A stretch of DNA of 64,000 nt from Clostridia bacterium (GTDB lineage Bacteria > Bacillota > Clostridia > Christensenellales > Aristaeellaceae), in NCBI GenBank assembly GCA_017509255.1, contig JAFWQA010000001.1, forward strand, positions 186,001 to 250,000. Reading direction: 5' to 3'. Positions 7,352 through 29,590 of this stretch are shown here, one piece after another. Below the pieces are notes generated by a model. The model had not been told where the DNA came from and made no database searches. It saw nothing but the letters and a program-made list of their open reading frames with translations. A program made the position numbers and the translations under genes. Position 1 is the stretch's first letter; the number at the start of each line of letters is the position of its first letter.

Positions 7352-8235
7352 TGAGTACGCTTTCTTCAACGGAACGGACTGCCAAACGCCACATGGGAAT
7401 CAATACCTCCAGGCGGATCAGCAATACCGCGGCGTACACCGTGCTGATCCTGATCAGCATCATCTGGCTGGTTCCTTTCGTGTTCATCGTTCTGCAGTCC
7501 TTCCGCGTGGAATCCACCTGGCAGGTGGGCTATGTGATTCCCCAGAAGTGGGGACTGGACAATTACGCCAATCTGTTCAAAACGGATTTTCCGCGCTGGT
7601 ATCTGAATACCTTTATTGCGGCGGTGGCAACGGCAGTGCTGCAGACTGTTATCGTGCTTTGCATGAGCTATACGCTCAGCCGGTTCCGCTTTAAAATGAG
7701 AAAACCGCTGATGCGGTTCATGCTGATCCTGGGCATGTTCCCCGGAATGCTGACCATGATCATTCTGTACCGCGTGCTGAAGGATCTGGGCATGACGCAG
7801 GCGAATGCGGTGCCCGGCCTGATCCTGGTATACATCGCTTCCTCCGGTATGGGCTACTACGTTTCCAAGGGCTTCTTCGATACCATTCCGAAGTCCCTGG
7901 ATGAGGCGGCCCGCGTGGACGGCGCGACCCGCTTCCAGGTGCTGAAAAAAATCATTCTTCCTCTTTCCAAACCGATCGTGATCTACACGATCCTGACTGC
8001 CTTCATGGGCCCATGGGGAGACTTCGTATTCGCGAGATACATCTCCTTCGGAACGTCTTCCGGGATGAACGTGGCGGTCGGCCTGTACAACTGGCTGAAC
8101 CGTGACCAGATCGCCAACAATTATACGATGTTCTGCGCGGGCGGCGTACTGGTGGCTGTCCCGGTGACCCTCCTGTTCATGTGCCTGCAGCGGTATTACG
8201 TGGAAGGCGTGACCGGCGGCGCGGTCAAGGGATGA
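7351..8235 (+). CDS. maltodextrin ABC transporter permease, MalG-like
   Basis: This 294-residue inner-membrane permease pairs with the MalF-like protein. It has a cytoplasmic N-terminus, a first membrane segment near residues 30-50 (VLILISIIWLVPFVF), the F..LK/TDF periplasmic loop, and the EAA motif SLDEAARVDGATRF at about 181-194. The ATG at 7351 overlaps the preceding TGA; GAGG at 7335-7340 is the ribosome site. A GTG at 7348 is an alternative start. Length and layout are normal for the family. Confidence 0.9.
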   Translation: MSTLSSTERTAKRHMGINTSRRISNTAAYTVLILISIIWLVPFVFIVLQSFRVESTWQVGYVIPQKWGLDNYANLFKTDFPRWYLNTFIAAVATAVLQTVIVLCMSYTLSRFRFKMRKPLMRFMLILGMFPGMLTMIILYRVLKDLGMTQANAVPGLILVYIASSGMGYYVSKGFFDTIPKSLDEAARVDGATRFQVLKKIILPLSKPIVIYTILTAFMGPWGDFVFARYISFGTSSGMNVAVGLYNWLNRDQIANNYTMFCAGGVLVAVPVTLLFMCLQRYYVEGVTGGAVKG

Positions 8236-15228: not shown

Positions 15229-15267
15229 GATTCGGACGGAAAGTCCGGATCGGAAGGAGAAATGATG

Positions 15268-15813
15268 ATGAGCATTTACGATTACTCAGTACCCGCCACG
15301 AACGGAGAAGAGATTTCCCTGAAAAAGTACGAAGGCAAGGTCCTGTTGATCGTCAATACCGCCACCGGCTGCGGATTTACTCCTCACTACAAGGATCTGG
15401 AGGAGATCTACGAAGCGAACCACGATAAGGGTCTGGAGATCATTGACGTGCCCTGCAACCAGTTCGCCGGCCAGACGCCCGGGACGGACGAAGAGATCCA
15501 CGAATTCTGCACCCTCAAGTACAACACGCAGTTCCCGCAGATGAAAAAGAGCGATGTGAACGGCGAAAACCAGCTGCCCCTGTTCGCATACCTGAAGAGC
15601 CAGAAGGGCTTTGAAGGATTCGGTCACGGACCGGTGGCGCTGATGATGAGCACGATGCTCAAAAAGATCGACAAGGATTACAAAAACAATCCCGACATCA
15701 AGTGGAATTTCACCAAATTTGTGGTGGACCGACAGGGCAACGTCGTGGCGCGCTTTGAGCCGACCGCGAGCATGAAGGACGTGGCAGCCTGCGTGGAGAA
15801 GCTGCTGGCATAA
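15268..15813 (+). CDS. glutathione peroxidase-family thiol peroxidase
   Basis: This 181-residue cytoplasmic enzyme reduces hydroperoxides. Three ATG codons stand in tandem; the third (15268) is preferred because AAGGAG is 8 bases away from it. The peroxidatic residue is a cysteine, Cys35, in TATGCGFTP, not selenocysteine; the tetrad partners are visible as Gln69 in AGQTPG and the Trp-Asn pair in KWNFTKF. Like most non-animal members it probably draws electrons from thioredoxin, which is encoded two genes downstream together with a reductase-like flavoprotein. It leads the operon behind a promoter with a palindromic operator. Confidence 0.93.
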   Translation: MSIYDYSVPATNGEEISLKKYEGKVLLIVNTATGCGFTPHYKDLEEIYEANHDKGLEIIDVPCNQFAGQTPGTDEEIHEFCTLKYNTQFPQMKKSDVNGENQLPLFAYLKSQKGFEGFGHGPVALMMSTMLKKIDKDYKNNPDIKWNFTKFVVDRQGNVVARFEPTASMKDVAACVEKLLA

Positions 15814-15846
15814 AACAGGAACCGGAACACAGACGGGAGGCAAGTG

Positions 15847-16716
15847 ATGGAACTTTACGATATTGCCGTGATCGGCACAGGCCCGGCCGGCATCTCCGCA
15901 GCCATTACCGCCACGGTGAGAAACAAGCGGGTGCTGCTGCTGGGCAGCAAAAACCTGAGCGAGAAGCTGGAAAAGGCGCATGAGATCCGGAATTATCCGG
16001 GCTTCCCGGCTGTAAAGGGTTCGGAGCTGGCAGCGGCAATGAAGGCGCACCTGGACAGCATGGGCATTGAGATCACGGAGAAGCGTGTCAGCGCGGTGTA
16101 TGCCATGGGTGATTATTTCGCTCTGCAGGCGGATCAGGAAATGCTGGAAGCGACCGCTGTGATCCTGACGACGGGCGTCGTGCAGGGGAAGCCGCTGCCG
16201 GGCGAGGAGCAGTGGCTTGGGCGTGGCGTCAGCTACTGCGCGACCTGCGACGCGGTGCTTTACCGGGGCAGGGATGTGGCCGTGATCGGCTACAGTCCCC
16301 GCGAAGAGGCGGAAGCCGCGTTCCTGAGTGAGGTGTGCGCGAAGGTGCTTTACTTCCCGGTCTATGAGGCGGAACCGATATTGCCGGAGAGCGTGCGGGT
16401 GATCCGGGAGAAGGTGACCGGGATCGAGGCGGACGGAGACCGGAAGAAGGTCGTGACCGCGGAGAACGGATATTCCGTGGACGGCGTGTTCGTGCTGCGG
16501 GAGGCGGTGGCTCCGGGGCAGCTGGTGCCGGGGCTGGAAACGGACGGGAGCCATGTGAAGGTCAGCCGCAAAATGGAATGCAGCATTCCGGGCTGCTTCG
16601 CGGCAGGAGATATCACGGGAACGCCGTATCAATATATCAAGGCTGCCGGAGAAGGCAATGTGGCCGCGCTGAGCGCGGTCAGCTATCTGGATCAGTTGAA
16701 GCGGGCAAAAGCCTGA
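15847..16716 (+). CDS. thioredoxin-reductase-like flavoprotein lacking the NADPH motif
   Basis: This 289-residue protein has the low-molecular-weight thioredoxin reductase fold: the FAD motif GTGPAG (10-15), the redox-active pair CATC (131-134) and a second FAD motif CFAAGDI near the end. The pyridine-nucleotide site is abnormal. Where GGGxSAxEEA is expected it has GYSPREEAEAA (148-158), and the HRRxxxR phosphate-binding stretch is replaced by a neutral and acidic segment, FPVYEAEP. Clostridial ferredoxin-dependent flavin thioredoxin reductases are known to lack NADPH binding, so this may be one of them (inference). GGGAGG lies 7 bases upstream of the ATG; the gene follows the peroxidase by 33 bases and precedes thioredoxin. 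Confidence 0.85.
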   Translation: MELYDIAVIGTGPAGISAAITATVRNKRVLLLGSKNLSEKLEKAHEIRNYPGFPAVKGSELAAAMKAHLDSMGIEITEKRVSAVYAMGDYFALQADQEMLEATAVILTTGVVQGKPLPGEEQWLGRGVSYCATCDAVLYRGRDVAVIGYSPREEAEAAFLSEVCAKVLYFPVYEAEPILPESVRVIREKVTGIEADGDRKKVVTAENGYSVDGVFVLREAVAPGQLVPGLETDGSHVKVSRKMECSIPGCFAAGDITGTPYQYIKAAGEGNVAALSAVSYLDQLKRAKA

Positions 16717-16732
16717 GAAAAGGAGCGTTAAA

Positions 16733-17047
16733 ATGGTTAAGAAGATCAATGAAGCGGAATTCAACAGCGAAGTGAAAAAGGACGCGGTGGCTGTGGTCGA
16801 TTTCAACGCCACCTGGTGCGGTCCCTGCCGGATGCTGGCGCCCGTGCTGGAAGCGCTGAGCGAGGAATATGCGGGCCAGGTCAATTTCTACGCGGTGGAC
16901 GTGGATGAGAACCCCGGGCTGGCGACCCAGTACCGGATCCAGAGCATTCCTTTCATCGGACTTTTCAAGAACGGCCAGTTTATCGACCAGTCCGTCGGCT
17001 TCCGCCCGCAGGCGCAGCTGAGCGGATGGATCCGGGAGAATCTGTAA
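16733..17047 (+). CDS. trxA: thioredoxin
   Basis: This 104-residue cytoplasmic thioredoxin has the active site WCGPC (residues 28-32) in DFNATWCGPCRML and the cis-proline in QSIPF. Length is normal. It follows the reductase-like gene by 16 bases with AAAGGAG upstream. It should carry electrons from that flavoprotein to the glutathione-peroxidase-family enzyme at the head of the operon. Confidence 0.93.
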   Translation: MVKKINEAEFNSEVKKDAVAVVDFNATWCGPCRMLAPVLEALSEEYAGQVNFYAVDVDENPGLATQYRIQSIPFIGLFKNGQFIDQSVGFRPQAQLSGWIRENL

Positions 17048-17064
17048 TCGGGAGACGGACAGAA

Positions 17065-17514
17065 ATGTGTAATGAAAAGCTGACCTCCGCGGAGGAACTG
17101 CCCCAGCTGATGCTGGAAAACCAGCTGTGCTTTCCGCTGTACGCGGCCGCGCGCAGCGTGGTCAACCGGTATACTCCCTATCTGAAGCCGCTGGGGCTGA
17201 CCTATACACAGTACATCGTTTTTCTGGTCCTGTGGGAAGCGGGGGAGATCACAGTCGGCGAGCTCTGCCGGAAGCTGTATCTGGACAACGGCACACTGAC
17301 GCCGATGCTCAAGAAGCTGGAAGAGGCCGGAACGGTCATCCGTACCCGTTCCAAAGACGATGAGCGTGTGGTGACTGTCCGGCTGACGGAAAAAGGATGG
17401 GCGCTGCGGGAAAAAGCAGCGGAGATCCCCGCAAAGGTCGGCGGCTGCGTCCGGCTCTCCGCGGAGGAGGCCGGGCAGCTGTATCACATTCTGTACAAGC
17501 TGCTGAATATGTAA
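17065..17514 (+). CDS. MarR-family regulator, OhrR-like peroxide sensor
   Basis: This 149-residue protein is a winged-helix MarR regulator. Its N-terminus contains LENQLCFPLYA with Cys22, which corresponds to the reactive sensor cysteine of OhrR proteins; that residue is oxidised by organic peroxides and releases the repressor from DNA. The recognition-helix region (TVGELCRKLYLDNGTLTPMLKKL) and the wing (DDERVVTVRLT) are intact. It is the last gene of the peroxidase-reductase-thioredoxin operon and probably represses it through the palindrome at 15217. The start at 17065 has GGGAGA 9 bases upstream. Confidence 0.88.
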   Translation: MCNEKLTSAEELPQLMLENQLCFPLYAAARSVVNRYTPYLKPLGLTYTQYIVFLVLWEAGEITVGELCRKLYLDNGTLTPMLKKLEEAGTVIRTRSKDDERVVTVRLTEKGWALREKAAEIPAKVGGCVRLSAEEAGQLYHILYKLLNM

Positions 17515-17625: not shown

Positions 17626-17790
17626 ACCGATGCGCAGATGAGTTGACTGCGGCTAACTGCCCAGACTGCGGATGAGATCCGGCCTTTGGCCTTTTTTCAT
17701 CCCTGACGGTTAACTGCCGCTAACAAATGCTCGCGGGAATAAGCCGGGATTCCGGCGGTTTTTTATCAGGCACAGTTGGCTTCGGCTAAC
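17608..17790 (+). repeat. four 16-bp dyads, consensus GTTRRCTKCSGCTAAC, in promoter and leader of the iron operon
   Basis: The copies are at 17608-17623 (GTTGCAGGGTGCTAAC), 17642-17657 (GTTGACTGCGGCTAAC), 17709-17724 (GTTAACTGCCGCTAAC) and 17775-17790 (GTTGGCTTCGGCTAAC). Start-to-start distances are 34, 67 and 66 bases, that is one, two and two units of about 33. The half-sites GTTAGC/GCTAAC recall the metal-dependent DtxR/IdeR repressor family, which would fit iron control (inference). Copies 2-4 lie in the transcript, where copy 4 can also fold with a TTCG loop. Confidence 0.7.
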
Positions 17791-17870: not shown

Positions 17871-19640
17871 ATGAAAATAAAACGCTGCCTGACTCTTGTG
17901 ACGGCATTGGCGCTGCTGCTGGCGTCAGTTCTGACAGCACTGCCTGCCCTGGCTGCAGAGGAAACCGAAGAAGGGATCAGCCCGACCCGCTGGGGCGGCG
18001 CGGCAGATCAGATCGACCGGTATATTGATGCTGCTTTTGAGCTTTATCTCCAGGGAGAAGGCGGAAAGGGCTCAGCCAGGATCAATGATGCGTATTTCAA
18101 GATCTATGAGATCACGGGCTTTGAACGTCAGACCATGAGCTATATTTCCGGCCCGCGCAAAAACGCTGTGGAGCTGCAGTATTCCACCTGCAAGGCAGCT
18201 GTAAAAAAGACTGAGCTGGATGAGGGAACAAAAAAAGAAGTCCGCACCACGCTGGTCAAGCTGAAAACCATGATCCGCGAGGACGCGAACAAGCTGGCCG
18301 CGAAGGACGGGGAGCCGGCAACGGAAATGTCCTATTGGCTGGAGGGCGCCCGTGTGGATTACGATCCCTGGGCCGATCTGGCGGGAGACCCGAACGAGAA
18401 GGTCCATTATGCCAGCTGGGGCGCTGCCTATGAGGCGATCGGCGAGCTGCTGGACACCTCCTTTACCGCGTACAAAGGCATGGATTTCGAGGCGGCTGTG
18501 GACAACGTGAACACGGCGTTTTACAGCGTGTACGAGGATTCGGGCCTGGACCGGAAGATCTATTCCGAGCTGGGCGTTGCGGACCGTGAAGAAGTGGATG
18601 CCAAATTCGCGACCGTCAGGCAGGCGGCAGCGGCAGGCGCTGAAAAGTATCAGACCAGCGGCTACCGGCGTTCGCTGAAATCCCTGAAGTCTCTGGTCTC
18701 CTCCAAAGCATCCGCGCTGGATGAAAAAGAGGCTGCCGCCAAGGCTGAACAGGCTGCGGCAGAGACGGCTGAGACAGCGGCGGAAGCTCCCGCGGAGAAC
18801 AATGCCGGTATGCTGACCTTCTGGGCTGCTTTCGGGATCATTGTCCGGGAAGGGCTGGAAGCGATCCTGGTCATAGCGGCCATCATCGCGTATCTGGTCA
18901 AGAGCGGCAACGGAAAAAGCCTGCGTAATGTTTACATCGGCGCCGTGCTGGGCGTTGTTGCCAGCTTTGCGGCGGCCGCGGTGCTGGCATGGGCGAAATC
19001 GATGTTTGCGGGCGCCGGCATGGCGCAGGAGATCATAGAGGGCATCACGGCGCTGATCGCGGTGTGCGTGCTCTTCTATGTCAGCAACTGGATGATCTCC
19101 AAGGCGGAAGCGGCTTCCTGGAGTCGGTATATTGACAACAAGGTACAGACCTCCGTGGAAACAGGCTCTTCCTTTGCGCTGGCGTTTACCGCCTTCCTTT
19201 CCGTGTTCCGTGAAGGAGCGGAGGTCGTGCTGTTCTATCAGCCGATGCTGTCCGAGGGCAACGCGGGCATGGTGTGGACCGGCTTTGGCGTGGGCTGTGT
19301 GATCCTGGTGTTTGTGTATCTCGCGATCACAAAGCTTTCCGTCAAACTGCCGATCAAGGTGTTCTTTACGGCGACCAGTATTCTGATGGCGGTCATGTGT
19401 GTTTCCTTCCTGGGCAGCGGCATCAAGGAACTGGCGGAAGGCGGCGTGTTCGACGTGACGCTCCGTGTGCCGGGTATTCCGGAAAACGATGTGCTGCAGG
19501 TACTCGGAATCTATCCGTACCTGGAGACGCTGGTGCCCCAGCTGATCCTGGTGATCATTCTGCTGATCACATTTATGGCTGCCCGTTCCCGGGGAAAGCT
19601 GGATGCGCTCCGGAAGGAACTGACACAGGCAAAGCCCTGA
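17871..19640 (+). CDS. FTR1-family iron permease with N-terminal extracytoplasmic helical domains
   Basis: This 589-residue protein imports iron across the membrane. After a signal peptide (1-29) come two related helical units (about 40-145 and 180-285, each with a Y-x-I/V-Y-E-x-[TS]-G-[FL]-[ED]-R-K/Q core), then an Ala/Glu-rich linker and a seven-helix FTR1 domain from about 313. The two iron-handling motifs of the family are present: REGLE (326-330) and REGAE (447-451). It is the first gene of a nine-gene operon and corresponds to FetM of E. coli or Cj1658 of Campylobacter. AGAAGGAG precedes the ATG. The long dyad-rich leader implies tight, probably iron-dependent, control. Confidence 0.93.
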   Translation: MKIKRCLTLVTALALLLASVLTALPALAAEETEEGISPTRWGGAADQIDRYIDAAFELYLQGEGGKGSARINDAYFKIYEITGFERQTMSYISGPRKNAVELQYSTCKAAVKKTELDEGTKKEVRTTLVKLKTMIREDANKLAAKDGEPATEMSYWLEGARVDYDPWADLAGDPNEKVHYASWGAAYEAIGELLDTSFTAYKGMDFEAAVDNVNTAFYSVYEDSGLDRKIYSELGVADREEVDAKFATVRQAAAAGAEKYQTSGYRRSLKSLKSLVSSKASALDEKEAAAKAEQAAAETAETAAEAPAENNAGMLTFWAAFGIIVREGLEAILVIAAIIAYLVKSGNGKSLRNVYIGAVLGVVASFAAAAVLAWAKSMFAGAGMAQEIIEGITALIAVCVLFYVSNWMISKAEAASWSRYIDNKVQTSVETGSSFALAFTAFLSVFREGAEVVLFYQPMLSEGNAGMVWTGFGVGCVILVFVYLAITKLSVKLPIKVFFTATSILMAVMCVSFLGSGIKELAEGGVFDVTLRVPGIPENDVLQVLGIYPYLETLVPQLILVIILLITFMAARSRGKLDALRKELTQAKP

Positions 19641-19731: not shown

Positions 19732-20310
19732 ATGAAAAAAATTGTTGCTCTGCTGACTGCGGTTATGATGCTGTTCTGCGTTGCGGCTGTGGCTGAAGAA
19801 GCCGGCTTCGAAGAAACCCCCATTTATGTGGACGGAACCGAGGAATCCGGCAATGAGCAGGACGTTGAAGCTGCTCACCTGCATGTGGCAGCCGTTTATT
19901 TCCAGCCCGTTCCCATGGAGCCCGCCGATATCGCCGGTCTGGGCGTTGAAGGCGCGAACTTCCATATTGAAGCTGACATCTCCGCTCTGGAGAATGGCTA
20001 CGGCTTCGGCGCCGGCGACTGGGTCCCCTATCTGACCATCGACTTCAAGATCACCTCCGAGACCACCGGCAAGGTGGCAGCGGAAGGCACCATGATGCCC
20101 ATGAGCGCCAGCGACGGTCCCCACTACGGCCTGAACGTTGCTCTGACCGAGGCTGACACCTACACCCTGACCTTCATCATCCACAGCCCTGCCGAGAACG
20201 GCTATCTGCTGCATGTGGACGAAGAGACCGGCGTTACGGAGCATTCTTTCTGGTCCGAGCCCGTTGAAGTGAACTTCAAGCACTGGGAGTACACCGTTCA
20301 GGAGTGGTAA
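19732..20310 (+). CDS. P19/FetP-like extracytoplasmic iron-binding protein
   Basis: This 192-residue protein has a signal peptide (1-21) and the P19 immunoglobulin-like fold. Residues line up with the metal site known from Campylobacter P19: His78 and Glu80 in NFHIEADI, Met124 in MMPM, His131 in GPHYG, and a further His at 161 or 171. The 46-residue and 7-residue spacings match those of the known protein. It is thought to hand iron, with help from copper, to the FTR1 permease. GGAGGAGG gives a strong ribosome site, and a long hairpin after the gene may stabilise its message, so it is probably the most abundant product of the operon. Confidence 0.92.
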   Translation: MKKIVALLTAVMMLFCVAAVAEEAGFEETPIYVDGTEESGNEQDVEAAHLHVAAVYFQPVPMEPADIAGLGVEGANFHIEADISALENGYGFGAGDWVPYLTIDFKITSETTGKVAAEGTMMPMSASDGPHYGLNVALTEADTYTLTFIIHSPAENGYLLHVDEETGVTEHSFWSEPVEVNFKHWEYTVQEW

Positions 20311-20451: not shown

Positions 20452-20496
20452 TTGATGTTTGGAAATCCGAAAAATAAAGCCGGGAGGCGGTCAGTT

Positions 20497-21816
20497 TTGC
20501 TGAAATATGTGGTCACGTTGACGGAAGATCTGCTGATGGTATCCGTGCTCATCAGCCTTTGCCTTGCGCTGTGCAAAATTGCCTACGGGCGGAAGGGAAT
20601 GCGGTTCATTGCCGTGGGCGTTGCAGTCGGCCTGGCCGGAGCGGTCGCCATGTGCATTGCGAAGCATACCACGAGCAAGATAGCCACCAATCAGTGGAAT
20701 TTCTATACCTTCCTCGTAACCATCGTTCTGTCGCTTCTGTTTCTGGCGCTGTCCCTGATCTTCGGCCGTCATCACCGGCAGCTGACCTATTACGGCAGCG
20801 ATACGGACGCGCCGATCGGGATCGGCGGCGTGCTTCTGGGCAGCGCGGCGGCAGCGCTGATCGCCGTGTGCCTTTTCTATGAGGGCCCGGAGGTGCTGGG
20901 ATATCCGGTGAACTTTGATACTGCCGGGAACGGCATTATTTCCGAACAGTTCGCGGTCCGCCTGGTGGGATGGCTGCTCGGGATCCTTCTGGTATTTCTC
21001 TTTGGCTGCTTCCTGTACAAATGCACCATCACGCTGAACAGCTCTCCGATCCTGCTCTGGGTGCTGAACGCTGCCCTGCTGACAAACGGGGTGCGCTGCT
21101 TCGGCATGGCCGTGAGCAAGTGGGTGGCGCGGTGGAAATGGCTCACCTGGCTGCCGAAGTACAACAAGGCGGCCTATCCCTGGGCGTTCCCGCTGACAAA
21201 ATTCGTGACCAACAACATCCTCCTTTTCGCTTTTGTGATCGCGGGGCTGGCAATGGTCATTCCGGTGATCCTGTTCATCCGGAATATAAAGGTCCACGGG
21301 ATGTGGGACAATCCGGCGCAGCTGCGCAAGCTGAAATCGACAGCTCGTCACAAAAGGCGTATAGCCGCGGTAACGGCTGTTCTTTTTGCGGCCGCTATGC
21401 TGAACCTGACGGTGCTCAAGGATATCACGAACCGCAAGGTGGAGCTTTCCGCGCCGGAAAGCTACCGTATCGCGGACGACCGGATCCTGGTCGGCATCGA
21501 TCAGGTGAACGACGGGAACCTGCACCGCTTTGAGTATGTGACAGAGAAAGGGATCGGCGTTCGCTGGATCATCGTTCAGAAACCGGGATCCGGCACCTAC
21601 GGCGTCGGTCTGGACGCGTGTGAGGTCTGCGGGACGGCAGGATATTATCAGCGCGGCGAGCAGATCGTATGCAAGCGCTGCGACGTGGTCATGAACATCA
21701 ATACGATCGGCTTCAAGGGCGGATGCAATCCGATCCCGCTGAACTATAAGGTGGAAAACGGATCCGTCATCTTTGAAATGAGCGATATTCTGGCCGCGGA
21801 GCGGGAATTCAGGTGA
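20497..21816 (+). CDS. membrane protein with C-terminal DUF2318 metal-binding domain
   Basis: This 439-residue protein has about eight membrane segments followed, from about residue 320, by a DUF2318 domain: CEVCG, VCKRC and the family signature KGGCNPIPLNY. The Cys-rich domain is expected on the outer side and probably binds iron or an iron-sulfur cluster. It corresponds to Cj1660 in the Campylobacter P19 system. The start is set at TTG 20497 because GGGAGG is about 10 bases upstream and the protein then begins MLKYVV like its relatives; an in-frame ATG at 20455 falls inside the preceding hairpin region and has no ribosome site. The stop is 13 bases before the next gene. Confidence 0.85.
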   Translation: MLKYVVTLTEDLLMVSVLISLCLALCKIAYGRKGMRFIAVGVAVGLAGAVAMCIAKHTTSKIATNQWNFYTFLVTIVLSLLFLALSLIFGRHHRQLTYYGSDTDAPIGIGGVLLGSAAAALIAVCLFYEGPEVLGYPVNFDTAGNGIISEQFAVRLVGWLLGILLVFLFGCFLYKCTITLNSSPILLWVLNAALLTNGVRCFGMAVSKWVARWKWLTWLPKYNKAAYPWAFPLTKFVTNNILLFAFVIAGLAMVIPVILFIRNIKVHGMWDNPAQLRKLKSTARHKRRIAAVTAVLFAAAMLNLTVLKDITNRKVELSAPESYRIADDRILVGIDQVNDGNLHRFEYVTEKGIGVRWIIVQKPGSGTYGVGLDACEVCGTAGYYQRGEQIVCKRCDVVMNINTIGFKGGCNPIPLNYKVENGSVIFEMSDILAAEREFR

Positions 21817-21829
21817 GGAGGTCAACGGC

Positions 21830-23131
21830 ATGCTGTTTCGAATGATTCGCGGTGTCCTCTTCCGTCAAAGAGGAAAGATGCTGCTGATCGCCTTTACGAT
21901 CGCGCTCGGAGCATCCCTGGCGACCAGCATGATCAATGTGATGCTGGATGTCGGTGACAAGGTCAGCCAGGAGCTGAAGACCTACGGGGCCAACATTGTG
22001 GTCAGGCCGCGGGATTCCTCCCTGCTGTCCGATATTTACGCTGTTGAGGACGGCGGTCAGGAGATCGCCAATGCCTGGCTGCGGGAAGACGAGCTGGGAA
22101 AGCTGAAGACCATTTTCTGGGCGTTCAATATTGTGGACTTTGCCCCGTTCAACGAGGCAGCGGTCACGCTGCCGGACGGCAGCGCCGTCAAGGCGGTCGG
22201 TACCTGGTTCAACCATCACCTGGATCTGCCGACCGGTGAATCGCTGGATGCCGGAGTGGCGAGCCTGCGCTCCTGGTGGGATATTGCCGAAGGCGCGTGG
22301 ATCGATGAACAGTCGGAGAGCGCGCAGGAGCAGATCATGGCCGGCCTGGCTCTGGCTGAACGGGCGGGCCTGCATGTGGGAGACCGGCTGAAGCTGACCG
22401 GCCGCAGCGCGGAAAAAACAGTGACGGTCGCCGGGATCTACGATGCCGGCGGGGCTGAGGACGAGCAGATCTACGCTCCGCTGGATCTGGTCCAGTACCT
22501 GACAGATACGGACGGCAAGGTGGCTTCCATCGAGGTCTCCGCGCTGACGACTCCGGACAACGACCTGGCCCGTCGCGCGGCTCAGAACCCGAAGGCGCTG
22601 TCCTCCAAGGACTATGAAACCTGGTACTGCACGGCGTATGTCAGCGCGGTGTGCTATCAGATCACGGAGGTGATCACCGGTTCCGTGGCTTCCGCGGTGC
22701 GGCAGTTGGCGGAGAGCGAGGGGACGATCCTGGACAAGACGCAGCTGCTGATGATCCTGATCACCGCGCTGAGCCTGATCGGTTCCGCGCTCGGCATTTC
22801 CAACCTGGTCACCGCCAGTGTCATGGAGCGCGCGCAGGAGATCGGTCTGCTCAAAGCGATCGGCGCGCATGACAGAGCTATCACCCGCGTTTTTATGACA
22901 GAGATCCTGATTACCGCCCTGGCAGGAATGGTGATCGGCTACTTTGCGGGTTTCGGCTTTGCCCAGCTGATCGGCCAGAGCGTGTTCGGATCGGCGATCG
23001 AGATGAAGGGTCTGGTCATTCCGATCGTGGCGGTGCTGATCACGCTGGTCACGGTTGCGGGCAGTATGCCCGCGATCCGGATGGTGCTCCGTCTGGATCC
23101 GGCAGAAGTGCTGCACGGCAGCAAAGCGTAA
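21830..23131 (+). CDS. FtsX/MacB-like ABC permease 1 of the iron system
   Basis: This 433-residue permease has a first membrane segment near residues 15-38, an extracytoplasmic MacB-type domain up to about 290 and three closing membrane segments, with the FtsX core ASVMERAQEIGLLKAIGAHD between the first two. Such permeases do not carry solute through a channel; they use ATP to work on proteins or ligands outside the membrane. Homologues (Cj1661-type) are a fixed part of FTR1-P19 operons, where their exact role is not settled. It has the usual periplasmic domain, without the insertion found in its partner at 23168. Confidence 0.9.
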   Translation: MLFRMIRGVLFRQRGKMLLIAFTIALGASLATSMINVMLDVGDKVSQELKTYGANIVVRPRDSSLLSDIYAVEDGGQEIANAWLREDELGKLKTIFWAFNIVDFAPFNEAAVTLPDGSAVKAVGTWFNHHLDLPTGESLDAGVASLRSWWDIAEGAWIDEQSESAQEQIMAGLALAERAGLHVGDRLKLTGRSAEKTVTVAGIYDAGGAEDEQIYAPLDLVQYLTDTDGKVASIEVSALTTPDNDLARRAAQNPKALSSKDYETWYCTAYVSAVCYQITEVITGSVASAVRQLAESEGTILDKTQLLMILITALSLIGSALGISNLVTASVMERAQEIGLLKAIGAHDRAITRVFMTEILITALAGMVIGYFAGFGFAQLIGQSVFGSAIEMKGLVIPIVAVLITLVTVAGSMPAIRMVLRLDPAEVLHGSKA

Positions 23132-23167: not shown

Positions 23168-24628
23168 ATGACCAAAAGAAGAATGTTCCTGCGGATGATC
23201 ACGGCATCGCTGCTCAGACGGCGCAGCCGTATGCTGGTCGCACTTCTGTCCATCGGTATCGGCGCGACGATCCTGTCAGGACTGGTGACGATCTATTACG
23301 ATGTACCCCGGCAGATGGGCGCACAGTTCCGTAATTACGGAGCAAATATGATTTTTGTTTCGGCGGACGGCACATCGCTGGATGCCGAAAAGACGGCGGA
23401 GGCTCTTTCGCTGATCCCGAAGGAGAAGATCCTCGGAGCCACGCCTTACCGGTATACCAGCGCTCAGATGGTGCGCAACCAGCTGTCCTTTGTGGCGGCC
23501 GGAACGGATTTTGAACAGGTACAGGCAACAAGCCCGTACTTTATGGTGGACGGCGCGTATCCATCCGCTTCGCGGCAGGTGCTGCTGGGCAAGGAAGTGG
23601 CGAAAACGATCGGAGCGAAGCTGAACAGCATGGTGGAGATCTCCTGGAAGCCGTCTGTGACGGAAGCTTCCGGCGATACCGAACTGAAGCCGGGGGCGTA
23701 TCTGGCCGGCAGCGCGGAAGGCTTTAATTCAGCGCTGGTCTACGTCACGCTGAAGCTGGGCGATGATCTTTCCATTGCGGAAATGACGGTCAATGCCGAT
23801 TCGCAGACAGCGGAGTTTGGCGGCCGGTGCGCGGAGGAGAGCTTTACAAAGCAGTTTATCGGCAAACTGATCCCGCTGACGGCGGGAACCGACGTGGACG
23901 CCATGACCGGCGCGACGGTCACCTCACAGGCGGTTGTGGACGCTGTCAACAAGGCCCGCCCGACGGAAAACGCGCAGGCAGCGACAGGCAATTCCCTGAG
24001 CCTGCAGGTGACCGGCATTCTGGACACCGGCGGCGATGAGGAGCAGTACATTTTCCTGTCCCTTTCCGATATGGAGGCGCTGACGGGAGAACAGGACCGG
24101 TTTGACGTGATGGAACTGAGCGTGTCGGCATCCGCGGAGGAACTGGAAGAATATGTTTCTCAGATCACGGATAAGAGCGGCTCCGTTTCCGCCCGGCTGG
24201 TCAAGCGTGTGACCAGGTCGGAAGCAGCGGTGCTGACCAAACTGCAGTCTTTAGTCTTTCTGGTCACGGCGGTGGTGCTGCTGCTGACGATGATCTGCGT
24301 TTCCACGACCATGATGGCTGTGGTGACAGAGCGGAGAAAAGAGATCGGCCTGAGAAAGGCGCTCGGCGCGTCGGACAGCAGCATCCGGCTGGAATTCCTG
24401 GGAGAGGGGATCTTTCTGGGCGCGCTGGGCGGCCTGCTGGGCTCTGTGCTCGGATTCGGTTTTGCCCAGGTGGTAAGCGTCAACGTGTTTGGCAGCTCGA
24501 TTCAGTTCCAGCCTCTGCTGCTTCCGCTTACAGTGGCTGTTTCCATGCTGATCGCAGCGCTGAGCTGTATGCTTCCGATCAAGAGAGCCGTGCAGATCGA
24601 TCCTGCCCTGGTACTGAAAGGAGAATAA
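23168..24628 (+). CDS. FtsX/MacB-like ABC permease 2 with an inserted FMN-binding domain
   Basis: This 486-residue permease has the same plan as its neighbour (first membrane segment near 22-44, three at the C-terminus from about 355, FtsX core MMAVVTERRKEIGLRKALGA). The extracytoplasmic domain contains about 105 extra residues (160-268) that read as a complete FMN-binding domain of the RnfG/NqrC kind: PGAYLAGSAEGFNSALVYV, a second strand set with TVNADSQTAEFG, a Gly-Lys near 232, and DVDAMTGATVTS (242-253). The D-x-x-[ST]-G-A-T motif is the ApbE flavinylation signal, so Thr250 should carry FMN covalently. A flavin in an iron-operon permease suggests electron transfer outside the membrane, for instance to ferric iron. 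No ApbE is encoded in the window. Confidence 0.88.
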   Translation: MTKRRMFLRMITASLLRRRSRMLVALLSIGIGATILSGLVTIYYDVPRQMGAQFRNYGANMIFVSADGTSLDAEKTAEALSLIPKEKILGATPYRYTSAQMVRNQLSFVAAGTDFEQVQATSPYFMVDGAYPSASRQVLLGKEVAKTIGAKLNSMVEISWKPSVTEASGDTELKPGAYLAGSAEGFNSALVYVTLKLGDDLSIAEMTVNADSQTAEFGGRCAEESFTKQFIGKLIPLTAGTDVDAMTGATVTSQAVVDAVNKARPTENAQAATGNSLSLQVTGILDTGGDEEQYIFLSLSDMEALTGEQDRFDVMELSVSASAEELEEYVSQITDKSGSVSARLVKRVTRSEAAVLTKLQSLVFLVTAVVLLLTMICVSTTMMAVVTERRKEIGLRKALGASDSSIRLEFLGEGIFLGALGGLLGSVLGFGFAQVVSVNVFGSSIQFQPLLLPLTVAVSMLIAALSCMLPIKRAVQIDPALVLKGE

Positions 24629-24631
24629 ATC

Positions 24632-25306
24632 ATGAGTCTGCTTGAACTGAAAAATATATCCAAGATCTACGGAGAACTGAAGGCGCTGGACAAAGTCAAC
24701 ATTCACGTGGATAAAGGAGAATGGGTCGCGATCATGGGCCCTTCCGGATCCGGAAAGAGCACGATGATGAATATCATCGGCTGCATGGATAAGCCCTCCC
24801 GGGGCGAGGTCCTTCTGGACGGCGTGGACATCGCCAAGGAAAGCAGCAGGAAGCTGACGGATATCCGTCGGGACAAGATCGGTCTGGTCTTTCAGCAGTT
24901 CCACATGGTCAATTATCTGACAGCTGTGGAAAATGTGATGGTCGCGCAGTACTATCATTCCATGCCGGATGAAAAGGAAGCGCTGGAGGCTCTGGCACGC
25001 GTCGGCCTGAAGGAACGCGCGCATCATTTGCCGAGCCAGCTGTCCGGCGGTGAGCAACAGCGTGTCTGCGTGGCCCGGGCACTCATCAATCATCCTGAGC
25101 TGATCCTTGCGGATGAGCCGACCGGCAACCTGGACGAGACCAACGAGAATATCGTGCTGGATCTGTTTGCCCAGCTGCATAAGGAAGGGACGACCCTGAT
25201 CGTCGTGACGCATGACCCGGAGGTGGCGGATGCCGCGCAGAGGACGATCGTTCTGGAGCATGGACGCGTAGCAAGAGAGGTCATCAACGAAAACTTCGGG
25301 AAATAA
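24632..25306 (+). CDS. ABC transporter ATPase, LolD/MacB type (iron system)
   Basis: This 224-residue ATPase has Walker A GPSGSGKST (36-44), a Q-loop in VFQQFHMV, signature LSGGEQQR near 137, Walker B LILADEPTGNLD near 157 and the switch His in VVTHDPEVAD. It drives the two FtsX-like permeases encoded just upstream; the start lies 3 bases after the stop of the FMN-domain permease, with AAAGGAG inside that gene. It corresponds to Cj1663 or FetD-type ATPases. Confidence 0.93.
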   Translation: MSLLELKNISKIYGELKALDKVNIHVDKGEWVAIMGPSGSGKSTMMNIIGCMDKPSRGEVLLDGVDIAKESSRKLTDIRRDKIGLVFQQFHMVNYLTAVENVMVAQYYHSMPDEKEALEALARVGLKERAHHLPSQLSGGEQQRVCVARALINHPELILADEPTGNLDETNENIVLDLFAQLHKEGTTLIVVTHDPEVADAAQRTIVLEHGRVAREVINENFGK

Positions 25307-25345: not shown

Positions 25346-25747
25346 ATGAACAAGCGTATGAACTGGGGTGCGTGTGCCGCCCTGATCTTTTCCCTGATAC
25401 TGACGGTCGGCAGCAGGACCTTTCTGGGCGCCTGCGCGCATGAAGACGGCAGCTTCGGCGCCTGTCACTGGGCAAATCAGGCCATGTTCGGCCTCGGGAT
25501 CCTGCTGAGCGCGCAGAGCCTGGCGGCGCTGCCTGCGCGGGACGAAAGGATCCGCATGGGGCTGCTGATCGCGGAAGCAATGACGGCGGTCCTGGGTATG
25601 TTCATTCCCGGGACGCTGATCAGCCTGTGCAAAATGCCGTCCATGGTTTGTCTCTCCACCATGAAGCCGGCGATGCTGATCCTGTGCGCGGTGATCCTGC
25701 TTGCGACTCTGGCGGGTATCCTTCAGGCGCGGAAGCGGGCAAAGTGA
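25346..25747 (+). CDS. DUF4418-family small membrane protein
   Basis: This 133-residue protein has four membrane segments (about 8-28, 45-63, 72-92, 107-127). The loop after the first helix carries GACAHEDGSFGACHW-like chemistry, namely Cys-x-His and Cys-His pairs on the outer face, which could bind a metal. The DUF4418 family is usually found beside FtsX-type ABC transporters and FTR1-P19 iron systems; its function is not known. AAGGAG lies 9 bases upstream. The stop is 7 bases before the third permease. Confidence 0.8.
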   Translation: MNKRMNWGACAALIFSLILTVGSRTFLGACAHEDGSFGACHWANQAMFGLGILLSAQSLAALPARDERIRMGLLIAEAMTAVLGMFIPGTLISLCKMPSMVCLSTMKPAMLILCAVILLATLAGILQARKRAK

Positions 25748-25754
25748 GGAAAGA

Positions 25755-26957
25755 ATGAAAATCAGTCAGTTACCGGTCAGGAATCTGACCCGCAAACCGG
25801 GGCGTACGTTGGCGCTGATCTGCCTGACGGCGCTCCTGGCGCTGTCGGTTTTCGGCGGATCCGTGGTGGTGCTCAGCCTTCGCAGCGGTCTGAACTCACT
25901 GGAAAACCGTCTGGGTGCGGATATTATCGTTGTACCATCCAGCGCGAAATCGCAGACAAATCTGAAGCAGATGCTGCTGCAGGGGACCACGGGCTATTTC
26001 TATATGGACCGGAGCAAGCTGGATAAGGTGATTGCCACCGACGGAGTGGAAAAAGCGAGTCCCCAGCTCTTTCTTGCTTCTCTCCGGGCTTCCTGCTGCA
26101 CGATGCCGATCCAGGTCATCGGGATCGATCAGGAGACGGATTTTACCGTGGAACCATGGATCGAGGAAAGCTATACCAGGAAACTGGAGCTCAGGGATAT
26201 TGTCGTCGGTTCACAGGTCAATGCCGGTATCGGCGAAAGCCTCCGGATCTACGGGGTCAACTGCCCGGTGGTCGCCCGTCTGGCAAGCACCGGAACAGGT
26301 CTGGACACCGCGGTCTATACCGGCATGGACACGCTCCGCCTGCTGCTGGACGCTGCCCGTGACCTGGGACACGACCTGAAGATCTCCGGCGATTCGGCTG
26401 ACGTGATCTCTGCGGTCTATGTCAAGGTAAAGGATGGCTGTTCCGTGGAACGCGTCGCGGATGACCTGGCGGTGCATGTCAGCAAAACGGAAACGGTGCA
26501 GACCAAAGGAATGATCACCGGCGTGGCGGACAGCCTGGCCGGGATCTCTTCCACGGTCACGGCGCTGATCGCAGCGGTCTGGGTGCTGGCCTTTACCCTG
26601 CTGATCATCGTTTTTGCCATGATGGCGCGGGAGCGCAGCCGGGAGTTCGCGGTGCTGCGGGTGATCGGCATGTCCAGAAGCGGCCTGGCCGGAATGATCC
26701 GGAAGGAATCCCTGATGATCGGCCTGGCCGGAGGCCTGGCGGGTATCGCTCTGGGCGCGGTGCTGGTTTTTTCCTTCAGCACACTGATCGAACAGAAGCT
26801 GGCCCTGCCGTATCTGACGCCCTCCGCTGGAACACTGGCGCTGCTGGCAGGCCTGACGCTGCTGGGAACGACAGCCGTTGCCATGCTGGCTTCCGCCCGG
26901 GCGGCGGGACGGCTGAGTCGGACAGATCCGGGAACTGTGCTGCGGGAGGGTAATTGA
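25755..26957 (+). CDS. FtsX/MacB-like ABC permease 3
   Basis: This 400-residue permease has one membrane segment near 15-38, an extracytoplasmic domain to about 265 and three C-terminal segments with the core MARERSREFAVLRVIGMSRS. It lacks the FMN-binding insertion. The ATG at 25755 is used because GAGGA is 5 bases upstream; an upstream in-frame ATG lies inside the DUF4418 gene. With the ATPase that follows it makes a second ABC pair in the same iron operon. Confidence 0.88.
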   Translation: MKISQLPVRNLTRKPGRTLALICLTALLALSVFGGSVVVLSLRSGLNSLENRLGADIIVVPSSAKSQTNLKQMLLQGTTGYFYMDRSKLDKVIATDGVEKASPQLFLASLRASCCTMPIQVIGIDQETDFTVEPWIEESYTRKLELRDIVVGSQVNAGIGESLRIYGVNCPVVARLASTGTGLDTAVYTGMDTLRLLLDAARDLGHDLKISGDSADVISAVYVKVKDGCSVERVADDLAVHVSKTETVQTKGMITGVADSLAGISSTVTALIAAVWVLAFTLLIIVFAMMARERSREFAVLRVIGMSRSGLAGMIRKESLMIGLAGGLAGIALGAVLVFSFSTLIEQKLALPYLTPSAGTLALLAGLTLLGTTAVAMLASARAAGRLSRTDPGTVLREGN

Positions 26958-26958
26958 T

Positions 26959-27639
26959 ATGGATATCAGAGCAGAAGGGATCAGCAGGCGATATTTCAGG
27001 AGAACGGGGGAAGCGAACTATTTTGAGGCGGTCTGCCGGACGGATTTCACGGTGGAAGCCGGCAAGGTGACTGTGCTGCTCGGCCGCAGCGGCTCCGGGA
27101 AAACCACGCTGCTGCATATGCTTGCCGGGCTGCTGACACCGACCGGCGGCAAGATTTTTCTGGGGGATACGGATCTGTACAGCCTGGAGGACAAAGCGCT
27201 TTCCGAGATAAGAAACAAAAGGATCGGCGTGATCCCGCAGGGGCGCAGTGTGATCGACACGCTGACGGTGCTGGAAAACATTCTTCTTCCCGCTGCGCTG
27301 TACGGAGGGGAAAGCCGCGGGCAGGAAGCACTGGAATGGATGAAAAAGCTGGATATCGCGCATCTGGCGGATTCCCGTCCAACAGAGCTGTCCGGAGGCG
27401 AGCTGCGCAGGGTGGCTATCGTCCGGGCGCTGGCAGGAAAACCGGAGGTGATCCTGGCGGATGAACCGACGGGCGATCTGGATGACGAGAATACCGCGCT
27501 CGTGCTGTCAGCTCTGCGTGATGCCGCACGGGATGGGGCAGCTGTATTGCTGGTCACCCATGAAGGCGAAGCGAAACAATACGCGGATGAGGTCTGGCGT
27601 ATGAATGCCGGGACACTGACGCGTGAGGAACGGAACTGA
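26959..27639 (+). CDS. ABC transporter ATPase, LolD-like (second pair)
   Basis: This 226-residue ATPase has Walker A GRSGSGKTT (42-50), a Q-loop IPQGRSV, signature LSGGELRR near 143, Walker B VILADEPTGDLDD and a switch His in VTHEGE. The start is one base after the stop of the permease at 25755, so the two are coupled and should work together. It is the last gene of the nine-gene iron operon and is followed by a terminator. Confidence 0.92.
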   Translation: MDIRAEGISRRYFRRTGEANYFEAVCRTDFTVEAGKVTVLLGRSGSGKTTLLHMLAGLLTPTGGKIFLGDTDLYSLEDKALSEIRNKRIGVIPQGRSVIDTLTVLENILLPAALYGGESRGQEALEWMKKLDIAHLADSRPTELSGGELRRVAIVRALAGKPEVILADEPTGDLDDENTALVLSALRDAARDGAAVLLVTHEGEAKQYADEVWRMNAGTLTREERN

Positions 27640-27694: not shown

Positions 27695-29590
27695 TCAGTA
27701 GAACCAGCCGCCGTAATACGAATCGTCATCATACCAGCCGGCATCGTCCGAATCATCGCCGTAGTACCAGTCGTCACCGTACTCCGATCCGGCAAACCAG
27801 CTGAAAAGGTCATACCAGTCATAATCCTCTGTCCAGTCAAAATCCTCATACCAGTCCGAACCGAAATAATCGTCGTCATAAAGCATGGATGAGGAATCGT
27901 CATCCCAGCCGCAATCCTCATACCAGTCTCCCCAGCCATGCCAGGAGCTGTCCCAATCGTTATAATCGTAATAGTTTTCTGAGCCCTGAGCGCTGACAAA
28001 TTTTTCCAGCCATTCTATATAATTGCCGTCAAGCCCGCAGGCGGTAAAGATCTCTTTCAGATCGCGATAAAAATCCGGATCGCCGTAGGGAAGCGTAATG
28101 CCCAGTCCGGTCAGCCCGTCCGAGGAACTGGAATCCGTGTAAACCAGCGCGGTGCCCAGAGCGGCCTCCAGTTCAGCCACGTCCGCAGCGGGAGCGTTGG
28201 AGGCGACGGACATCATATCCGTTACATAATAGGTGGAAAGCTCCACATCCTCTTCCATCATGCTGCCGAATCCGCCCGAATAGCTCCACGGCCTGCCGGC
28301 CTGTCCGCGTCCGCGGCTGCGGCGCTGTGTGGAATAATTGCTGCCCAGCAAAGCTTTTTCATTGGCATAGGCAAATTTCATCCATGCGGTGAAAAGAGCT
28401 TCCACCTTGCTTTCATCGATCAGCGCCAGAGTGGACTCATCCCCGTTACGATCCGTTTTGTTCACTGCGATCATCGTATCGACAATGGTTTTTCCGAGAA
28501 CGGGAGCGGGGAGGGCAGGATTGGCCTCCAGCGCCCTGATCCAGTCTGTATAATACCAGCCGATACCGGATTCGAAGTCCTCGGACAGGATCGTGTAATT
28601 GCAGTAGGGAGCCAGAGCGACGCAAACCTCCAGACTGCCCATCAGGCAGGCGTCCATACCGATGATATCGAAACGGATGTCCGGGTTTGCTTTCAAAGCC
28701 TGCTGCATTTCATCCATGGTCAGGGCGTCTTCGCTGTTTTTTGCCCAGTCGTCGGAGCCGTAGCCGTATACTGCTCCGCCGCCGTGATTCCAGAGAAGCA
28801 GGATGTACCGGTCCGCCGGATACTCCTTTGCTGTCCAGGAGATGAAGTCAGCCAGAGGCTCTGCCTCCGCGACGCTGATCCTGCCGAGCCTGTCCTTCAC
28901 GAGTTCCAGTTTGGAACCGTTTACGCGCCAGCGCTGCGCGGTGGAGGGTGAGATCCCGTAGTTGTGCCATCTGGAGGTGCCGATCGTTTCAACGATGATA
29001 TTGACGTTTTTCCCGGCGCCGGCACGGAGGATCTCCGCCAGATCCTCACTGGCGCTTCCGTCGTCGGACTCGAGGTCGGAGCCGTTCATATAGAGCATGA
29101 CGGTCACGCTTTTCGCTGCGGCTTTGGCGGTTTCAGCCTGGCCGGCAGCGGAAGCATGCGCCTGAACCGGGTCAGCTTCTACAACCTGACCGGCAGCGGG
29201 AGCCGACGGCTGAACGGCTGCCGACTTGCCGGCGGTCACCGTCAGGGATGCCGGGACGGTAGCGGCAGAGGAACCGCCCGCATCGGAGATCACGCAGCGA
29301 AACTGCCAGCCGTCGGTTTCATTCCCGGCGGGAACAAAAAGGATCTGGCCGTCATGGCCGGCAAAGGAGGTCTCTGTCCATGCCTGATCCGCCGCGGAAC
29401 GGGCCTGCCAGCGATAGGTGACGCCGTCACCCGTGGCGGCACACATGAACTGTGCCGTTTCACCGGACGCGCAGCTTTTGCTTTCCGGGGAATGGATGAC
29501 GGTCAGATAATCCGCTTCGGCGGACAGGACCGACAGGCATAATACAGCGGCCAGAACGCAGGAAATCAGTTTTGCGGGAAGTCTTTTCAT
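27695..29590 (-). CDS. secreted clostripain-family (C11) cysteine peptidase with an Asp/Trp/Tyr-rich tail
   Basis: This 631-residue protein has a signal peptide (1-25), an Ig-like domain with paired cysteines (about 28-118), an Ala/Pro/Val-rich linker and a C11 peptidase domain. The catalytic dyad is His269 in LLLWNHGGG and Cys315 in GMDACLMGS. A basic QRRSRGRG stretch near 420 may be a self-processing site, since clostripain is activated by cleavage (inference). Residues 538-631 are extraordinary: nearly all Asp, Trp, Tyr, Ser and Gly, with one Cys. The gene overlaps the kinase gene by four bases (ATGA), so it is translationally coupled to the two-component pair. Confidence 0.9.
   Translation of the reverse strand: MKRLPAKLISCVLAAVLCLSVLSAEADYLTVIHSPESKSCASGETAQFMCAATGDGVTYRWQARSAADQAWTETSFAGHDGQILFVPAGNETDGWQFRCVISDAGGSSAATVPASLTVTAGKSAAVQPSAPAAGQVVEADPVQAHASAAGQAETAKAAAKSVTVMLYMNGSDLESDDGSASEDLAEILRAGAGKNVNIIVETIGTSRWHNYGISPSTAQRWRVNGSKLELVKDRLGRISVAEAEPLADFISWTAKEYPADRYILLLWNHGGGAVYGYGSDDWAKNSEDALTMDEMQQALKANPDIRFDIIGMDACLMGSLEVCVALAPYCNYTILSEDFESGIGWYYTDWIRALEANPALPAPVLGKTIVDTMIAVNKTDRNGDESTLALIDESKVEALFTAWMKFAYANEKALLGSNYSTQRRSRGRGQAGRPWSYSGGFGSMMEEDVELSTYYVTDMMSVASNAPAADVAELEAALGTALVYTDSSSSDGLTGLGITLPYGDPDFYRDLKEIFTACGLDGNYIEWLEKFVSAQGSENYYDYNDWDSSWHGWGDWYEDCGWDDDSSSMLYDDDYFGSDWYEDFDWTEDYDWYDLFSWFAGSEYGDDWYYGDDSDDAGWYDDDSYYGGWFY

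Follow-up and report, generated by a model that had tools for sequence, protein, structure and literature searches.

The window analysed here, a stretch of 64,000 nucleotides from a Clostridia bacterium of the family Aristaeellaceae (GCA_017509255.1, contig JAFWQA010000001.1, positions 186,001 to 250,000), contains a FetMP-FetABCD iron-uptake operon in which one of the two ATP-binding cassette (ABC) permeases, FetC, has a flavin mononucleotide (FMN)-binding domain built into it. We show that FetC contains this domain and its flavinylation motif within its predicted ectodomain, that the genes fused in this way form a single clade, and that no separate FMN gene adjoins the operon in the fused loci examined. 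Judged by sequence comparison, the insert appears to take the place of the operon's seventh gene, and does so in one clade only. Flavin and thioredoxin partners of such systems have been published as neighbouring genes, whereas the present FetC contains the flavin domain within its own chain.

Based on Pfam matches and gene positions, the order FTR1, P19, FetA, FetB, FetC, FetD is that of the FetMP-FetABCD system, with the following features:

17871..19640, + strand: FTR1/FetM iron permease, FTR1 domain from about residue 320 (PF03239, E 4.5e-37)
19732..20310, + strand: P19/FetP, iron-binding protein (PF10634, E 2.3e-48)
20452..21816, + strand: FetA, membrane protein with an FtrD-like (DUF2318) domain at the C-terminus (PF10080, E 2e-29)
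21830..23131, + strand: FetB, FtsX-like permease without FMN domain (PF02687, PF12704)
23168..24628, + strand: FetC, second FtsX-like permease, with FMN_bind insert (PF02687, PF12704, PF04205; LolE/MacB fold)
23645..23992, + strand: FMN_bind insert and linkers, FetC residues 160-275, predicted extracytoplasmic domain
23897..23917, + strand: flavinylation motif D-A-M-T-G-A-T, FetC residues 244-250, predicted FMN attachment at Thr250
24632..25306, + strand: FetD, ABC ATPase (PF00005, E 9.3e-35)

The FMN-binding domain in FetC

A first inspection of the letters alone (the sequence-only reading) had claimed that about 105 residues of FetC (160-268) are missing from its sister FetB, that they contain a complete FMN_bind domain with the flavinylation motif D-A-M-T-G-A-T, and that the gene lies in an FTR1-P19 operon with a DUF2318 protein. 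The operon was confirmed by the PF03239, PF10634, and PF10080 matches listed above, and the motif was found at residues 244-250. FetC (486 residues) matches FtsX (E 1.4e-21) and MacB_PCD (E 1.3e-8) and, in residues 191-263, FMN_bind (PF04205, E 3.4e-9, 37.6 bits against a cut-off of 22), whereas FetB matches only FtsX and MacB_PCD. In BLASTP, FetB residues 1-66 and 197-430 align with FetC 6-71 and 278-485, and since these blocks flank the insert, it has no aligned counterpart in FetB. Relative to unfused FetC orthologues, the extra stretch consists of residues 168-219 and 226-266, close to the extent first claimed.

The sequence-only reading had also called for a structure prediction, and the model obtained (mean predicted local distance difference test score 85.9, predicted template modelling score 0.65) contains the FMN_bind fold, as an NqrC-like domain within the ectodomain of a LolE/MacB-type permease. 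The predicted transmembrane layout is 1+3, i.e., one long helix, a large ectodomain, and three helices, and by sequence and model FetC belongs to the type VII (MacB/LolCDE/FtsX) ABC permeases. It shares with LolCDE, MacAB, and FtsEX the permease fold of 1+3 helices around a large ectodomain; we know of no solved machine of this type with a redox cofactor domain. The best sequence matches of the insert are RnfG/NqrC-type and multi-flavinylated FMN domains, with which it shares the fold and the flavinylation motif (e.g., PDB 8p2b, FMN4 domain 1, and 4xhf, NqrC). Those domains occur in respiratory complexes or in chains of FMN domains, whereas the insert sits in an ABC permease. The RnfG model of NCBIfam scores the insert at 35.8 bits, below its cut-off of 205, and by its sequence the insert is a domain related to RnfG, yet not an RnfG.

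A survey of FTR1-P19 operons for the same insertion, likewise called for at the outset, yielded 52 distinct fused genes. Among the fetched loci, the motif D..[ST]GA[TS] stands at the insert position in all 52 distinct long FetC genes and in none of the 54 short ones, and the 23 aligned fused genes of the genus all share D244, G248, A249, and T250. The fused gene is present in 23 of the 45 genomes of the genus, the window's own included; 22 of the matches are single and span query residues 1-486, and one (genome G032) is in three pieces. Median ratios of nonsynonymous to synonymous substitution rates (dN/dS), calculated from 239-252 pairs and rough as dS is high, are 0.31 for the insert, 0.30 for the remaining ectodomain, and 0.11 for the transmembrane part. 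Because the fused gene recurs across the genus, its motif is invariant, and its insert evolves like the rest of the ectodomain, the fused FetC, on these comparisons, is neither a chance product nor an assembly artefact.

Separate FMN genes and the origin of the insert

In C. jejuni, FetMP-FetABCDEF (1649-1656) has the same order and families of FTR1, P19, FetA (DUF2318), two FtsX-like permeases, and ATPase. There, the thioredoxin-like FetE and FetF follow FetD (PMC10783030, PMC6083913), whereas the window has no redox gene directly at that place and carries its FMN domain in FetC. The seventh gene of such operons was described as a thioredoxin gene in most Proteobacteria and as a gene for an FMN-binding protein in Actinobacteria, Firmicutes, Spirochaetes, and Synergistetes, and its product was interpreted as one that might supply reducing power (Liu 2018, PMC6083913). 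An FMN-binding gene was counted in 260 P19 clusters, which share with the window P19, FTR1, and a predicted flavinylation substrate (Meheust 2021, PMC8238504). SifABCDE of B. breve, in which SifE has been mutated, likewise combines FetABCD-like genes with an FMN_bind protein, although SifE stands alone and has a hydrophobic N-terminus, whereas the window has an RnfG-type domain inside the permease (PMC5449479). The novelty seen by the sequence-only reading is therefore narrower than first thought: the FMN-binding seventh gene is already published, and what appears to be new is the place of the flavin domain inside FetC. The main text of Meheust 2021 (PMC8238504) uses neither "permease" nor "abc" and thus does not describe the fusion, and among the titles and abstract openings listed by searches of open-access papers, none points to a FetC/FtsX permease that contains an FMN domain.

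We scanned GTDB contigs and kept 80 related loci, which were annotated by script. In the fetched DNA, no separate FMN gene follows FetD at any of the 25 fused loci, whereas 51 of the 55 unfused loci have a separate FMN_bind gene near FetD, encoding 139-211 residues; the other four stop at or soon after FetD, and in one of them (L086) the beginning of an FMN gene is visible. A profile count gave the same contrast, with a separate FMN gene at 0/23 fused and 57/60 unfused loci. This count used stop-to-stop frames on the same strand within 2 kb and required at least 1300 nt after FetC, which removed 4 of 27 fused and 6 of 66 unfused loci; it added the window, genome G001, and further genomes, and left out L096 and L104 (split or short FetC). 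As the fused loci form one clade, the Fisher p of 1e-17 for this comparison overstates the contrast. Adding seven distant loci (L168-L174), one of which has an FMN gene, brings the unfused count to 58/67. A lipobox-like site, under a loose pattern, is present in 53 of 58 separate FMN proteins. In six fused genomes of the genus that are at least 95% complete, no open frame below 310 residues matches FMN_bind, although PF04205 detects both separate FMN proteins used as control; a SifE-type gene elsewhere in the fused genomes therefore seems unlikely. Two loci (L051 and L057) encode a two-FMN protein of more than 800 residues on the opposite strand, about 3 kb away.

Within the family, FetC was found in 115 of 308 genomes at E <= 1e-50, spread over 14 of 50 genera, and 111 of these are fused, a count that rests on match coordinates and frame lengths, with 52 distinct fused genes read as sequence. 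All four unfused genomes of the family (G075, G083, G228, and G247) have a separate FMN gene (L143-L146). Of 396 genomes sampled across the order, 10 match FetC at E <= 1e-40: eight are members of the family and fused, and two belong to other families and are unfused with a separate FMN gene.

In a FetC tree calculated with the insert columns removed, the fused proteins form one clade (26 rows; Shimodaira-Hasegawa-like approximate likelihood ratio test support 100) among 37 unfused rows; for the trees, we took every second row plus named additions, with 31 of the 62 separate FMN domains. Beyond the fused set, the insert's best BLAST partner (47% over 83 residues) is another FMN domain of the same genome, while separate FMN proteins gave short matches (best 39% over 44). 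The window's own genome has one FMN_bind match besides that in FetC. Consistently, 27 inserts score on average 61 bits with a profile of eight RnfG-like multi-FMN domains and 16 bits with a profile of the 62 separate proteins. Among NCBIfam models, none of them above cut-off, the insert matches RnfG and the two separate proteins scanned match PplA. In the domain tree, the separate FMN proteins group together (support 99) and the inserts fall with RnfG-like domains. From these comparisons, the likeliest course is that FetC gained an RnfG-like domain by insertion and the older separate gene was lost. The flavin module was probably swapped, as the insert resembles RnfG more than it does the missing lipoprotein.

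Multi-FMN proteins are encoded in genomes of the genus, one of them with a multihaem domain: a 1143-residue protein of G001 (L149, 3460-6888) has three RnfG-like FMN domains and a cytochrome c552-like multihaem domain. A multi-flavinylated RnfG with a multihaem domain has been mentioned for Christensenellales (Meheust 2021, PMC8238504).

Possible roles of the FetC flavin

We favour, with moderate confidence, a mechanism in which the separate extracytoplasmic FMN protein has been replaced by the RnfG-type domain in the FetC ectodomain, ApbE flavinylates Thr250, and ATP-driven FetBCD positions the flavin for the supply of Fe2+. ApbE would attach FMN covalently to this threonine, and FetBCD, judging from fold only, may be a mechanotransmission machine of the LolCDE/MacB type that does not itself carry iron. 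ATP-driven movement of the ectodomain would bring the flavin close to a donor of electrons and to the FetA and P19 metal centres, and the iron would be released or kept as Fe2+ and then handed to FTR1. FetA Cys 390, 393, 407, 410, and 425, which include two CxxC pairs, and His358 are invariant in all 28 aligned proteins. Candidate donors are RNF-type or multi-FMN proteins of related cells, because the insert resembles them, and the reductive direction is favoured over the oxidative one. Since evolution built the flavin into FetC and dispensed with the free protein, the flavin probably acts at FetC; the known role of the seventh gene appears to be kept, in a new position. The putative coupling proposed by the sequence-only reading, of the flavin to ferric reduction or to electron transfer via FetA and P19, is reasonable.

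The loss of any single one of fetA-D impairs growth of C. jejuni, for which the function and substrate of FetBCD are described as unclear (PMC10783030). The FetC fusion is an argument for the ectodomain of FetC as the place where the redox partner acts, and for ABC complex and redox chemistry forming one machine. It thereby suggests where in the iron-uptake machine electron transfer occurs, and makes the question testable in one polypeptide. In a bolder form, which we regard as doubtful, FetBCD would itself drive electron transfer: ATP hydrolysis would shuttle the flavin, held by FetC or, in relatives, by a docked SifE-type protein, between the donor and the FetA/P19 centre, iron reduction or release would be ATP-gated and vectorial, and the fusion would be the trace of a transient FetC-flavoprotein complex of other phyla.

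Several observations weigh against the favoured mechanism or limit it. It is drawn from sequence and a structure model, so that the flavin, redox activity, and iron phenotype of FetC are all predicted. ApbE, whose absence the sequence-only reading had named beforehand as refuting, has no match in the window's own assembly, which is 74% complete; it is present in 40 of the 45 genomes of the genus, in 13 of the 13 with completeness of at least 90% and contamination of at most 5%, and in 22 of the 23 fused genomes, the window's own being the sole exception. The FetA helices contain no conserved histidines, and the electron donor is hypothetical. A clade uniting the inserts with the separate proteins has the higher likelihood and an approximately unbiased test p of 0.61 (122 columns); as it is not rejected, the swap relies on the similarity scores. 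In a sample across the phylum, 15 of 398 genomes match FetC at E <= 1e-30, one being the window's own, and the other 14 systems are unfused by coordinates. An FMN gene is adjacent in five of these (L158, L160, L161, L162, and L171) and in none of the other nine (L165-L170 and L172-L174), which means that the core machine can do without an adjacent flavoprotein. By these sequence surveys, Fet genes of gut Bacillota commonly have a flavin partner next to them, and many distant systems lack one there. Two distant loci have further features of their own: in the position after FetD that holds an FMN or thioredoxin gene in others, L166 has a gene (7728-8000) whose small product contains a lipobox-like site and two CxxCH motifs, and the Fet operon of L168 has two P19 genes in tandem.

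In B. breve, the sensitivity of sifABCDE and apbE mutants is limited to ferrous chelators (PMC5449479), and flavinylation of SifE could explain this shared pattern. It is a lead rather than proof, because the authors read ApbE as acting in Fe-S cluster repair and the mntH and oppC mutants are likewise ferrous-only, making the chelator pattern unspecific (PMC5449479).

The same data can be read in other ways. The flavin might be oxidative, passing electrons from Fe2+ on P19/FTR1 to an extracellular acceptor in a ferroxidase-like step. The FTR1-type permease of yeast is coupled to oxidation in this manner, in the Fet3-Ftr1 ferroxidase step, and the RnfG-like character of the insert would fit, as the multi-FMN proteins of the genus, including the one with a multihaem domain, could take the electrons. 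By analogy, the resemblance of C. jejuni FetE to thiol-disulfide oxidases (PMC10783030) could point in the same direction, and so counts against the reductive one. We nevertheless consider an oxidative role unlikely, since many fused relatives come from the rumen or gut and are presumably anaerobic, where Fe2+ would be expected to dominate and there is no obvious strong acceptor, and since the FMN protein was read as able to support iron reduction by both Liu 2018 (PMC6083913) and Meheust 2021 (PMC8238504). Less probable again is a redox sensor or gate, in which the state of the flavin sets the ATPase activity or conformation of FetBCD with no net electron flow. Ectodomains of the MacB/LolCDE type are where partners act, and the model places the FMN domain inside that of FetC; however, the small, often lipobox-bearing separate protein of relatives and the thioredoxin in the same gene position in most Proteobacteria (PMC6083913) fit an electron carrier better.

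That the FMN_bind fold is kept without covalent flavin, for non-covalent FMN, another ligand, or a structural role, would agree with the missing ApbE match in the window's own assembly and with covalent FMN being a prediction, but it is very improbable given that the Asp, Gly, Ala, and acceptor Thr are invariant in 23/23 aligned genes, that the motif is present in 52/52, and that nearly all fused genomes of the genus have ApbE. Finally, the flavin function might be supplied by another gene or by the second ABC module described below (25346-27639), which adjoins FetD in the window and many relatives, with the FetC insert being incidental. This deserves hardly any credence, as none of the module's three proteins matches FMN_bind, the module also occurs where a separate FMN gene exists, and the absence of that gene tracks the FetC insert.

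Neighbouring genes and upstream motifs

In most unfused relatives, the separate FMN_bind gene follows FetD; the window has a DUF4418 gene in this slot, and after it a second permease and ATPase:

25346..25747, + strand: DUF4418 protein, directly after FetD (PF14387, E 5.3e-22)
25701..26957, + strand: second FtsX/MacB-type permease without FMN domain, with an overlapping TTG start as listed (PF02687, PF12704)
26959..27639, + strand: second ABC ATPase (PF00005, E 7.2e-34)

All three genes are present, anywhere in the fetched DNA, in 38 of the 80 related loci, a count affected by the many loci that are cut at their edges, and in some relatives they are placed before FTR1. Together, the three genes resemble an accessory module that Fet systems have in Clostridia.

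Directly upstream of the iron operon (15262-17514) are a MarR-type gene and genes named by eye as glutathione-peroxidase-like, thioredoxin-reductase-like, and thioredoxin. Between these and FTR1, the pattern GTTRRC-N4-GCTAAC occurs three times (17642-17657, 17709-17724, and 17775-17790); it was picked after the copies had been seen, and a shuffled window yields 0.5 matches. A related palindrome, TTAGC-N4-GCTAA, is present upstream of FTR1 in 5 of 58 other loci (L077, L085, L095, L106, and L108), compared to a mean of 0.18 loci in Markov resamples, and in none of the fused relatives examined. This palindrome is perhaps the operator of an iron regulator. Beyond the second ATPase, on the minus strand (27695-29590), lies a gene for a secreted clostripain-like protein, also named by eye, whose tail at the C-terminus is very rich in Asp, Tyr, and Trp.
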